A stretch of DNA of 64,000 nt. Origin: Pseudorhodobacter aquimaris. Its GTDB lineage: Bacteria; Pseudomonadota; Alphaproteobacteria; Rhodobacterales; Rhodobacteraceae. The stretch lies in the NCBI RefSeq assembly GCF_001202025.1, contig NZ_LGHS01000070.1:62001-126000 (forward strand), read 5' to 3'. Numbering within the stretch: position 1 is the stretch's first letter; each line of letters begins with the position of its first letter. The notes below the pieces were generated by a model that was given only the letters and a program-made list of their open reading frames with translations, was not told the DNA's origin and did not search any database. Of this stretch, positions 1 through 45,347 are shown one piece after another. A program made the translations under genes and the position numbers.

Positions 1-485
1 GGCGCTCCCGTGACGAATTTGTTCCATAATGCCTGTTTCCATTTCTGAGAAAGGGTCGCACGCATCAACACGTGGGATCAGATGCTTAGGTCGGTGTCCT
101 TCGGGATGAGTTTTGGGTGCGGCAACATCTGCCTTGCAGGGTGGTTGCAGCCTGCATTTTCAGTGCATGATCCGATGACCCGTTTCGGCGGCGGGTTCCG
201 CGAAAGAGTCCGATCCATGAACATCGACCAGATCAGCCCCAAAACGCTGATAGAGGGCCTAATCCGAAGATTCATATGCATTGGGGCACTGGGTTTGAGG
301 CGCTGAGACGCCGCCATAACGATCGCTCCTGGTCCAAATGCGCGGGAGACAGCCTGCTGCCGTCACCCGGACTGTAAGGGCCCTGCTCTGCGCTGCCGTC
401 CACGCTTATGCGTTCATCAGTTAAGGGTATGGAAATGCCGGCGGGGTGAGTGACCGCTTTGAGATGCGTTGCTCTTTAAAACAGC
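1..485. other. Unassigned stretch, no supported gene
   Basis: Short open frames exist on both strands (about 75 codons at 82-306 on plus and 79 codons at 78-317 on minus). Neither has a convincing ribosome binding site, a recognisable family motif or neighbours that would explain it. The stretch begins at the window edge, so it could be the 3' flank of a gene outside the window or a decayed sequence. I cannot assign it. Confidence 0.4.
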
Positions 486-41982: not shown

Positions 41983-43248
41983 TCACAGCCATTCGGGTAT
42001 GGTATCGCGCGAAAGCATTTCGTCAAAGGTCGGGCGGGCGCGGATGACCGCAAAGTGATCGCCGCGGACCAAAACCTCGGGCACCAACGGGCGGGAATTA
42101 TACTCGGAGGCCATCACCGCACCATAAGCCCCCGCCGAGCGGAAGGCGATCAAGGCCCCTTCGGTCAAGGGGGGCATATTGCGTCCCTTGGCAAAGGTGT
42201 CGCCCGATTCGCAGATCGGGCCGACGATATCAAAGGCGCGCTGTTCGGCGCCTGCCTCGGCTTCGATAAGGGGGATGATGTCGTGATGTGCGCCGTACAT
42301 CGCCGGGCGCACCAGATCATTCATCGCGGCATCGATAATCAGGAAATCGCGGTCCTCGCCCTCTTTTACATAAATCACGGAGCTGACCATAATCCCCGCA
42401 TTGCCCGAGATCAGCCGGCCAGGTTCGATTTCAATCTCACAGCCCAGATCGCCGACGGTGCGTTTGACCATTTCGCCATATTCCATCGGCAAGGGCGGTG
42501 CGGAGTTGTCGCGGGCATAGGGGATGCCCAAGCCGCCACCAAGGTCCAGCCGCCGGATGTTGTGACCATCCGCGCGCAGGGCATGGGTCAGCTCGGCCAC
42601 TTTCAGATAGGCGGTCTCAAAGGGTTCCAATGCGGTCAGCTGGCTGCCGATATGCACGTCGATGCCGACCACCTCCAGCCCGGGCAAAGAGGCCGCCTCG
42701 GCGTAAACCTCGCGGGCGCGCGAAATCGGGATGCCGAATTTATCGCCCTTCTTGCCGGTCGAGATTTTCTCATGGGTTTTCGCGTCGACATCGGGGTTCA
42801 CGCGGATGGTGATGGGTGCGATAAGGCCAAGGCCATGCGCGACTTGTGACAGGGCACGCATTTCCGGTTCCGATTCGACGTTGAACTGACGGATGCCGCC
42901 GGTCAGCGCCAGCTGCATTTCCTCACGGGTTTTACCAACCCCGGAAAAGACGATTTTATCGCCCGGAACGCCCGCCGCCTTTGCCCGTAGATATTCGCCG
43001 GCTGACACCACATCCATCCCCGCCCCCAGATCGGCCAGCGTTTTCAGTACCGCCAGATTGGACAGCGATTTGATGGCAAAGCAGACCAGATGGGGCAGGG
43101 GGGAAAGCGCCTCGGTGAAAAGCTGGTAGTGGCGGGTCAGCGTGGCGGTGGAATAACAGTAAAACGGCGTCCCCACTTGCGCCGCGATATCGGCGATGGC
43201 CACATCCTCGGCGTGCAAAGCACCGTTTTTATAAAGAAAATGATCCAT
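41983..43248 (-). CDS. lysA: Diaminopimelate decarboxylase
   Basis: 421 aa. A PLP enzyme that decarboxylates meso-diaminopimelate to lysine. Lysine in FAIKSLSN carries PLP, GGGLGIPY binds the phosphate, and CESGDTFAKGR provides the catalytic Cys from the partner subunit. ATG at 43248 is preferred over the GTG one codon upstream because of AAAGGG spacing. It follows a DUF2834 gene by 76 nt in the argH operon. Confidence 0.95.
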   Translation of the reverse strand: MDHFLYKNGALHAEDVAIADIAAQVGTPFYCYSTATLTRHYQLFTEALSPLPHLVCFAIKSLSNLAVLKTLADLGAGMDVVSAGEYLRAKAAGVPGDKIVFSGVGKTREEMQLALTGGIRQFNVESEPEMRALSQVAHGLGLIAPITIRVNPDVDAKTHEKISTGKKGDKFGIPISRAREVYAEAASLPGLEVVGIDVHIGSQLTALEPFETAYLKVAELTHALRADGHNIRRLDLGGGLGIPYARDNSAPPLPMEYGEMVKRTVGDLGCEIEIEPGRLISGNAGIMVSSVIYVKEGEDRDFLIIDAAMNDLVRPAMYGAHHDIIPLIEAEAGAEQRAFDIVGPICESGDTFAKGRNMPPLTEGALIAFRSAGAYGAVMASEYNSRPLVPEVLVRGDHFAVIRARPTFDEMLSRDTIPEWL

Positions 43249-43327
43249 CACGCGCCCTTTGTTAACTTGCTTGGATGATCTCTATCACGAATGGAAAGCC
43301 AAGGAAAAGCCACGTGGTTTTGCGGGG

Positions 43328-43642
43328 TCAAGGCGCCCGCGTGCGCAAAAAGAGGTAAAGCGGCAGAGCGCAAGACAGCCCGATGCAAAAACAGGCCGGA
43401 ATGGCGATCAGGGCGGACCAGTTGCGGCGCACGGCGGTCTCGGCCAGAATCCAAAGGGTCAGGGCCACCGCGGCGATCGTCAGATCCCAGGTCAGCCCCG
43501 TGGTTGCGGCATTGGCGTACCACGCATCGATTAAGCCGCGCAGCCCGCTGTCTGTCGTCTGCATATGGGCGATGAACCAATACATCGGATGCAGCGCGCC
43601 CCAAACCGCAAGCGCCAGATAGGCCATGCGCAGGGGCGACAT
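43328..43642 (-). CDS. DUF2834 small membrane protein
   Basis: 104 aa with three transmembrane segments (about 5-25, 45-65, 80-100), HPMYWFIAHM after the first and TWDLTIAAVAL in the second, typical of DUF2834. Function unknown. ATG at 43642 overlaps the stop of the preceding microlipoprotein by one base (TGATG), implying coupled translation. Confidence 0.8.
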   Translation of the reverse strand: MSPLRMAYLALAVWGALHPMYWFIAHMQTTDSGLRGLIDAWYANAATTGLTWDLTIAAVALTLWILAETAVRRNWSALIAIPACFCIGLSCALPLYLFLRTRAP

Positions 43643-43764
43643 CACTCAAATATCTCGCCGATGCGCGGGTCTTGTGTGGTATCGGCGCCGGGCGCGGTTG
43701 GCACGCCATCGGCGCCACAAGCCGCAAGGATCAGGGTAACGAGCAGGGCGGGCAGGATACGCAT
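43642..43764 (-). CDS. Putative 40-residue lipoprotein upstream of lysA
   Basis: 40 aa. The N-terminus MRILPALLVTLILAAC is a lipoprotein signal with the lipobox LAAC, leaving a mature peptide of 25 residues: C-G-A-D-G-V-P-T-A-P-G and an acidic tail. Position next to lysA and the CGxxG start resemble the LptM/YifL microlipoproteins that help assemble the LPS transporter LptDE, but the family's KGPL core is degenerate here, so this is a hypothesis. It is bracketed by one-base and 12 nt junctions in the argH operon. Confidence 0.7.
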   Translation of the reverse strand: MRILPALLVTLILAACGADGVPTAPGADTTQDPRIGEIFE

Positions 43765-43776
43765 CGGGGTTCCTCG

Positions 43777-43941
43777 TTATGGTCGGACAGAGACACGCGC
43801 CCCACCCACACGGGCGGTGGCTACGGGTTTTACGCTAACACCATTGGGGCCGATGCCAACCCCGGCATAAAGGCCGGGATCGGTGCAGGCGGTCAGCCCC
43901 AGCAATAGCGGGGCCAACAGGATGAGGGGCAGGCCCCTCAT
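43777..43941 (-). CDS. Putative 54-residue lipoprotein downstream of argH
   Basis: 54 aa. A hydrophobic signal ([19 protein letters not shown]) ends in the lipobox LTAC, giving a 36-residue mature lipoprotein rich in Gly and Val ([15 protein letters not shown]). ATGA overlap with the argH stop shows translational coupling. No known family recognised; short 'hypothetical lipoprotein' genes at this place are common in the family (inference from memory). Confidence 0.75.
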
Positions 43942-45347
43942 GCCAGCCGCTCTTGCCAGCGGGCGATTTGCGCGCGGACCTGTTCGGGGGCCGTGCCGCC
44001 ATAGGACATCCGGCTGCGCACCGAATTATCCACACCGAGCACGTCAAACACATCCGCGCGGATACCGCCATGCACCGATTGCATCTGTTCCAGCGTCAGG
44101 TCGGGCAGGTCGATCCCGGCTTTTTCGGCCATGGCCACAAGGCTGCCGGTGACGTGGTGTGCGTCGCGGAAGGGCATGCCCAATTCGCGCACCAGCCAGT
44201 CGGCCAGATCCGTCGCGGTCGAGAACCCCGAGGCGGCGGCGGCCTTCAGGTTGTCGCGCAGTGCCTCCATATCGCTGACCATGCCAGTCATGGCGGCAAG
44301 GCCCAGCATCAGGCTGTCGGCGGCGTCAAAGGTTTGTTCCTTATCTTCCTGCATGTCCTTGGAATAGGTCAGCGCCAGCCCCTTCATGATCGTGAACAGC
44401 GCCACCGTGGCCCCCAAAATCCGCCCCAGCTTGGAGCGCAACAGCTCTGCCGCATCGGGGTTTTTCTTTTGCGGCATGATCGAGGAACCCGTCGTCCATT
44501 TGTCCGACAGTTTCACAAAACGGAACTGGGCCGAGGACCAGATCACCAATTCCTCGGCAAAACGCGACAGGTGCATCGCGCAGATCGAGGAGGCGGACAG
44601 GAACTCCAACGCGAAATCGCGGTCGGAGACCGAATCAAGGCTGTTGGCCGTGGGGCGGTCAAAACCCAAAGCGGCGGCGGTGGCCTCACGGTCAATCGGG
44701 AAGGAGGTGCCTGCAAGGGCGGCGGCCCCCAAGGGGCATTCGTTCATCCGTGCGCGCGCGTCGATAAACCGCGAGCGGTCACGGGCGAACATTTCGACAT
44801 AGGCCAGCATGTGATGCCCCCAAGTCACCGGCTGCGCGGTTTGCAGATGGGTAAAGCCCGGCATCACCCAATCGGCGCCTGCCTCTGCCTGCGCCAGAAA
44901 CGCCTTCATCAGCGCCTCAAGCCCCGTAATCGCGGCATCACATTGATCGCGCACCCAAAGCCGGAAATCGAGCGCCACCTGATCGTTGCGCGAACGCCCC
45001 GTATGAAGGCGGCCCGCAGGCTCTCCGATGATTTCTTTGAGGCGCGCCTCCACATTCATGTGGATATCTTCCAGCTCCACGCTAAAGGCGAAATTTCCCC
45101 CCTCGATTTCTGACAACACCGTGAGAAGCCCTTCACGGATCGTCTCTGCATCAGTAGAGGTAATCACACCCTGTGCCGCAAGCATTGCCGCATGGGCACG
45201 AGAGCCTGCGATATCCTGCGCGGCCAGACGGCGGTCAAACCCGATCGAGGCATTGATCGCTTGCATGATCGCGTCATTGCCGCCTTCAAAGCGGCCGCCC
45301 CACATGGCATTTGCGGGGGAATTTGCGGGTTTGGAAGATTGGGTCAT
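43938..45347 (-). CDS. argH: Argininosuccinate lyase
   Basis: 469 aa. It splits argininosuccinate to arginine and fumarate, the last step of arginine synthesis. The fumarase/aspartase signature [12 protein letters not shown] is present, plus MWGGRFEGG at the N-terminus and [22 protein letters not shown] precedes the start. First gene of the argH-lipoproteins-DUF2834-lysA-TIGR02302 operon, divergent from a thioredoxin-like gene across 27 nt. Confidence 0.96.

Follow-up and report, generated by a model that had tools for sequence, protein, structure and literature searches.

Two open frames of 54 and 40 codons (here lp54 and lp40) lie between argH and lysA of Pseudorhodobacter aquimaris, and the question they raise is whether such short frames are genes and, if so, whether either product belongs to the lipopolysaccharide (LPS) transport apparatus of the outer membrane. 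The window, by which we mean the whole stretch of DNA analyzed, comprises 64,000 nucleotides (contig NZ_LGHS01000070.1, positions 62,001 to 126,000). A preliminary description of this sequence had reported a lipobox in each frame (LTAC and LAAC), which the translated frames confirm (Table 1). It had also raised the possibility that LptM (YifL) has a diverged counterpart in the 40-residue protein, had noted that the 54-residue protein matches nothing known, and had suggested an envelope role for the two. LptM has been described in enterobacteria; in E. coli it assists disulfide maturation of the LPS translocon protein LptD, and scoring with PF13627 places lptM-like genes, with a conserved neighborhood, in about 57% of Alphaproteobacteria (PMC10567701).

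On the minus strand, open frames together with Pfam and NCBIfam matches give the order argH, lp54, lp40, a DUF2834 gene, and lysA. Of the operon overlaps noted earlier, ATGA joins the start of lp54 to the stop of argH and TGATG joins the stop of lp40 to the ATG of the DUF2834 gene; lp54 and lp40 themselves do not overlap but are spaced by a 12-nt gap containing GAGGAA. Both genes follow argH in the same order in all eight other genomes of the genus. Against the nearest of these (G007), NG86 dN/dS was 0.076 for lp54 (50 codons) and 0.186 for lp40 (39 codons), and against the other seven it was 0.079-0.357 for lp54 and 0.27-0.45 for lp40 (one value not computable), figures that are rough given that dS was mostly >1. 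The preliminary description had made its case depend on conservation of the frames under synonymous-level constraint in related genomes, and with every computable dN/dS below 0.5 such constraint is evident. lp54 and lp40 are confirmed as real genes under purifying selection in the genus. In 64 of the 110 family loci surveyed below, a DUF2834 gene is encoded 3' of argH, no more than 2.5 kb away and in the same orientation.

Table 1. Features of the argH-lysA region, with positions counted from the first nucleotide of the window.
Feature	Position	Strand	Basis
argH, argininosuccinate lyase	43938..45347	-	TIGR00838, 590.7 bits
lp54, 54-codon lipoprotein, proposed beta-sheet-domain companion	43777..43941	-	LTAC lipobox, Cys19
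Predicted three-stranded beta region of lp54, residues 23-52	43786..43875	-	AlphaFold2 model, 19 sequences
GAGGAA, likely lp40 ribosome-binding site	43770..43775	-	sequence
lp40, 40-codon lipoprotein, proposed LptM of the lineage	43642..43764	-	LAAC lipobox, Cys16; mature CGADGVPTAPGADTTQDPRIGEIFE
LptM-like head of lp40, CGADGVPTAP, mature residues 1-10	43690..43719	-	sequence, E. coli LptM sequence, profile alignment
DUF2834 protein	43328..43642	-	PF11196, 96.3 bits
lysA, diaminopimelate decarboxylase	41983..43251	-	TIGR01048, 458.5 bits

The region downstream of argH was surveyed in 110 genomes counted to the Rhodobacteraceae and in 44 others, relatives being located via argH since lp40 is too short a query for distant relatives. 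The family loci comprise the window genome, eight same-genus genomes, 90 further argH genomes (a non-random sample of the 40 most similar, 20 further down, and 30 mainly of low similarity), and 11 named loci assigned by title; the 44 non-family loci carry titles of alphaproteobacterial groups, with the exception of L056, whose title says only Pseudomonadota. The nearest named argH relatives, at 78-83% identity, bear the name Rhodobacteraceae or related ones. Among the family loci, where the preliminary description had proposed to examine conservation of this gap, the available room exceeded 400 nt in 107 of 110, and a lipoprotein with a CG mature start was found within 1.5 kb in 103 of these 107; lysA lay on the argH strand no further than 2.5 kb away in 87, of which 86 had a CG-lipoprotein between the two genes. 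Outside the family, 43 of 44 loci had such room and 36 of these had a CG-starting lipoprotein within 1.5 kb; by the same limits of strand and distance, lysA was present in 37 loci, 34 of them with a CG-lipoprotein in between; in all these counts individual picks may be wrong, as for candidates 750-1040 nt away (G041, L040). Of the 150 loci with 600 nt of room, 137 had a CG-starting lipoprotein beginning in the first 500 nt after the argH stop (112 of 150 by a stricter pattern), versus 1 of 948 random 500-nt windows taken from LptD loci on both strands (0 of 948 by the stricter pattern). It could be argued that both frames encode leader peptides or arose by chance, given that they are short and have amino acid biosynthesis genes as neighbors. 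The lipobox and the mature parts of both are conserved, however, and dN/dS together with the chance control counts against this explanation; we give it practically no credence.

The second question is what lp40 is. Its precursor has a signal peptide with the lipobox LAAC followed by G, as in LptM, and its mature start, read earlier as C-G-A-D-G, is indeed that of CGADGVPTAP, a ten-residue head resembling the CGxxGxPxxP of LptM. Like LptM, lp40 is a short lipoprotein that begins with Cys-Gly, lies beside a diaminopimelate gene, and occurs in a genome with LptD and LptE (one match each, of 164 and 35.9 bits, in the window genome). It differs from LptM in a very short tail, in scores under both curated cut-offs, and in having at mature position 4 not the basic residue of E. 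coli LptM (K23) but D. Against the LptM model NF047847, lp40 reached 13.6 bits, under the 27.7-bit cut-off, and no Pfam family, PF13627 (LptM_cons) included, matched it at E 10. Searching the whole window genome with NF047847 gave 27 matches at E 10, of which the best had 17.9 bits and none exceeded the cut-off; the six matches listed span mainly model positions 1-21 to 1-23, that is, the signal peptide. These matches neither confirm lp40 nor demonstrate a rival LptM elsewhere in the genome. An AlphaFold model of lp40 (mean pLDDT 74) has regular structure in the signal helix alone. By eye, seven of the eight same-genus counterparts from outside the window genome end in a short motif like G[LVF]xxSGxAxxGV, which is worn down in lp40 and in the protein from G007.

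A total of 104 family proteins related to lp40 by place were divided into 88 of D-type (alignment A2) and 15 of K-type (alignment A3), with one (G090) left out as unclear. The D-type consensus is CGADGxPxxP, in which C, G, and D carry little weight in themselves (the CG start was preselected and the K-type split off) and the second P is unselected, and the K-type consensus is CGxKxDPLxP. NF047847 matched 33 of 36 other-alphaproteobacterial proteins of the argH place (first member 35.4 bits, best E 2.3e-10) and 14 of 15 A3 proteins (first member, L284, 33.3 bits; best 1e-8) at E<=1, passage of the 27.7-bit cut-off being established for these first members only, that is, for one other-alphaproteobacterial protein and L284. 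The gene of L284 begins about 16 nt 3' of its argH, and the LptMs of other Alphaproteobacteria likewise occupy the place between argH and lysA; lp40 thus shares a conserved neighborhood with LptMs that pass the cut-off. For the D-type proteins, NF047847 matched 72 of 88 at E 1 (best 4.2e-5), which is weak support as the model is largely signal peptide, and PF13627 matched 30 of 88 at E 1 (best 9e-5).

Because NF047847 is mostly signal peptide, profiles were compared directly. The D-type profile aligned with that of the other-alphaproteobacterial LptMs at a score of 42.3 over 29 columns, spanning the head, and with A3 at 48.5 over 32 columns. The lp54 family aligned with the other-alphaproteobacterial LptMs at 27.7 over 14 columns, stopping at the Cys, and with the D-type LptMs at 41.4 over 33 columns, a value so close to the 42.3 of the D-type against classical LptMs that scores of this kind, among lipoproteins, cannot be very specific, although it would also fit a shared tail. 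In the profile search that had been proposed as a check, lp40 itself falls below the cut-offs of NF047847 and PF13627, and the profile of its D-type relatives aligns with LptM through the head.

In E. coli, K23 of LptM (mature position 4) is predicted, from a predicted complex, to form a salt bridge with E275 of LptD (PMC10567701); a second study places the same LptM segment at the LptD lateral gate in a passage that does not name the K23-E275 pair (PMC12644819). Since D replaces K in the relatives of lp40, LptD column 275 was checked for a basic residue. Among the first 30 alphaproteobacterial LptDs aligned, 17 came from the family, and 13 of these, that of the window genome among them, had R in this column (the others E in three and Q in one); the 13 from other families had E in eight, D in two, Q in two, and K in one. 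In the same 30 proteins, Cys was present in the columns of both E. coli C173 and C725 in every case, and equivalents of C31 and C724 in none. The retention of C173 and C725 equivalents makes LptD disulfide maturation plausible here, probably with one equivalent inter-domain bond.

The comparison was then extended to 158 aligned LptDs, of which 131 had a partner LptM that could be assigned to a class, three had an unclassed LptM (G014, G090, G273), and 24 came from genomes with no identified LptM (column 275: E 14, D 3, Q 3, R 3, K 1). Where LptM had D or N (n=84), LptD 275 was R in 73, K in one, A in three, S in two, and H, I, N, Q, or D in one each. Where LptM had K or R at position 3 or 4 (n=47), LptD 275 was E in 31, Q in 10, D in three, and H, L, or T in one each, and R or K in none; when position 4 alone was considered (39 genomes with K or R), LptD 275 was acidic in 31 and basic in none. 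By charge class as well as by 20 letters, column 275 had the highest association with the LptM residue of all 693 LptD columns within the family (97 genomes) and of 684 columns over all 131 genomes. The paired charge state at LptM position 4 and LptD 275 thus appears, from these alignments, to have been reversed rather than merely lost in the group to which lp40 belongs. In the literature searched, we found neither an inverted K23-E275 pair nor a Rhodobacteraceae LptM; the "LptM" of a Sinorhizobium small-protein paper proved to be an author's initials and was discarded.

Two further observations concern LptD itself. Column 294 (E. coli numbering) showed the second charge association in the family (0.751 versus 0.773 for column 275), and could be either a further contact or a clade marker. 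In four genomes (G017, G189, G046, G043), the LptD match was split in two, probably due to assembly frameshifts or contig ends.

How much weight the swap can bear depends on phylogeny. When columns 255-295 were left out of the LptD tree, the change in LptM fell on a clade of 85 tips (support 1.0) and that in LptD on a nested clade of 83 tips (support 0.90), with two basal genomes between, G226 (D in LptM, D in LptD) and G193 (K in LptM, D in LptD); possibly the change in LptM preceded that in LptD and was reversed in G193, or else G226 changed independently. By parsimony, the derived residue at LptD 275 was lost again seven times. A Pagel test of D/N against K/R gave p 0.044, and later codings gave p 0.0023 (D versus the rest) and p 0.060 (K/R versus acidic LptD). 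Within the D clade, a non-basic LptD 275 accompanied three of five LptMs with an uncharged position 4 (N in three, Q in one, and A, set by hand, in one) compared with seven of 81 with D, for a Fisher p of 0.010 that ignores kinship; outside the family, an uncharged LptM position 4 showed no significant association with a non-acidic LptD 275 (Fisher p 0.10). There are counter-cases: G014 (Q) and G090 (A) still have R in LptD, G226 has D in both proteins, and outside the family column 275 is K in G029 and R in G275, two genomes in which no LptM was identified. The charge association rests mainly on one deep event, and its phylogeny-aware support is moderate.

These data bear on whether lp40 might instead be an unrelated small outer-membrane lipoprotein that has come to occupy the place of LptM, with a convergent head and an LptD R275 that is a coincidence of one branch. 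Such an origin would account for the sub-threshold scores of lp40 and sits well with a single main transition that does not fall on exactly the same branch in LptM and LptD; moreover, charge association of at least about 0.69 within the family was seen in 6 of 693 LptD columns (275 included), which for a column named beforehand amounts to about 1% luck. Column 275 was, however, chosen from the published E. coli contact ahead of any LptD alignment, and it came first; changes within the clade covary as well; and the K-type proteins, which belong to the same place and the same family, look intermediate in their heads and include in L284 a protein over the LptM cut-off. We consider an unrelated origin rather improbable and conclude that lp40 is probably the LptM of this lineage in diverged form, as the preliminary description had surmised. 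That identification draws support from synteny, the CGxxGxPxxP head, and the LptD charge reversal, while lp40 itself scores below the curated cut-offs.

By analogy with E. coli, lp40 would be lipidated at Cys16 and carried to the outer membrane, where its ten-residue head would bind inside the LptD barrel near the lateral gate, helping LptD to mature and steadying the gate. The salt bridge of K23 and E275 would be replaced by an inverted pair, to which LptM contributes D and LptD contributes R. Such an inversion in nature would make the structural model genetically testable, in that single exchanges should fail and the double exchange should work. It should be noted that the current version of PF13627, the family with which the distribution of LptM was scored, misses lp40. 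Many frames of 30-60 residues behind argH in Rhodobacteraceae may be subunits of an essential, druggable translocon.

The second small protein, lp54, is harder to place. Neither Pfam (at E 10) nor NCBIfam assigns it to a family, in agreement with the earlier remark that it resembles nothing known. A total of 19 members were collected, nine from the genus of the window and ten from others, with a family pattern close to C[ST]xP...GxGIGPxGVxVxP....VGGAxVxV. The AlphaFold2 model from these 19 sequences (mean pLDDT 79) has three strands, at residues 23-31, 34-45, and 48-52. A fold search with the model returned 430 matches at E 10 or better and none at 0.001, and the lp54 profile searched against sequences of solved structures had a best E of 0.025, in a signal peptide, and, for the next kind of match, 0.12, in a stretch of an unrelated enzyme. 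In enterobacteria the translocon has a further accessory lipoprotein, LptY (YedD), so that an additional subunit of the kind proposed for lp54 has a precedent. LptY is a protein of about 14 kDa with an eight-stranded lipocalin-like barrel (PMC12644819), compared with a predicted three-stranded sheet of 36 residues for lp54; homology of lp54 to LptY was rejected on size and fold.

The tails of some LptMs offer another comparison. C-terminal tails of LptMs from other genomes of the family, such as G165, G011, and G136, share with lp54 a strand-turn-strand pattern and score above nearly all shuffles with the lp54 HMM; they sit behind a CGADG head, whereas the sheet of lp54 sits behind its own lipobox. 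The HMM was built from the nine same-genus members at iteration 0, later iterations having taken in a misread LptM (G099|68). At 8 bits or more, it matched 9 of 59 tails of at least 20 residues, the hits lying in single, longer LptMs, versus 44 of 11800 composition-keeping shuffles, with counts of 7 versus 16 at 10 bits and 1 versus 1 at 14 bits. In the genome of G011, which lacks an identified separate lp54 near argH, nothing matched the lp54 profile better than the LptM next to argH (E 4.3e-8, signal peptide included). A separate lp54 was present in none of the nine genomes with an lp54-like LptM tail; with 19 carriers among 102 genomes, this absence is not significant (p 0.14). One protein from G172 appears by eye to have a head and both tails, yet scores 3.5 bits with the lp54 HMM.

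From this likeness, lp54 may be a detached LptM tail: a separate lipoprotein carrying the small beta sheet that in related genera is fused behind the LptM head, and perhaps acting at the same translocon as lp40. The translocon accessory would then be modular, with head and tail sometimes in one gene and sometimes in two, and it is such modularity that would place lp54 at the LPS translocon. Alternatively, lp54 is a beta-sheet lipoprotein in its own right, unconnected with LPS transport and associated with lp40 by position alone, and its likeness to the tails reflects the general G/V make-up of beta strands. That alternative is favored by a mature start that reads, for most of the family, C[ST][DES]P and not the head motif of LptM, by the confinement of the separate gene to 19 of 109 family loci plus two marginal matches (same-genus HMM), and by the lack of a significant fold match; it has more difficulty with the excess of real tails over shuffles at 8 bits, the conserved position of the gene, and the G011 match. 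We judge the chance of an independent lp54 to be about even, and a site of action shared with lp40 and LptD to be possible but somewhat short of even. A split accessory in this branch of the family, made up of a charge-inverted LptM head (lp40) and the lp54 sheet in a four-part complex of LptD, LptE, LptM, and lp54, with head and tail modules fused and separated more than once, is proposed only tentatively and seems to us doubtful. Everything about the function of lp54 we infer; an envelope role of the kind first suggested is plausible, and accessory parts of the LPS translocon may be modular.

Additional small proteins were encountered during these searches. The lp54 profile also matched at G009:C22:12139-12285 (E 7.1e-5), in a genome with no lp54 beside argH, and at G013:C4:93845-94006 (E 0.0028). 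In two loci of the genus (L003, at -4..116 after the argH stop, and L018, at the corresponding place), a third small lipoprotein containing the stretch GAEP[MV]VTGLGRTETSV stands in front of lp54, and the argH gap of L118 likewise holds three lipoproteins.
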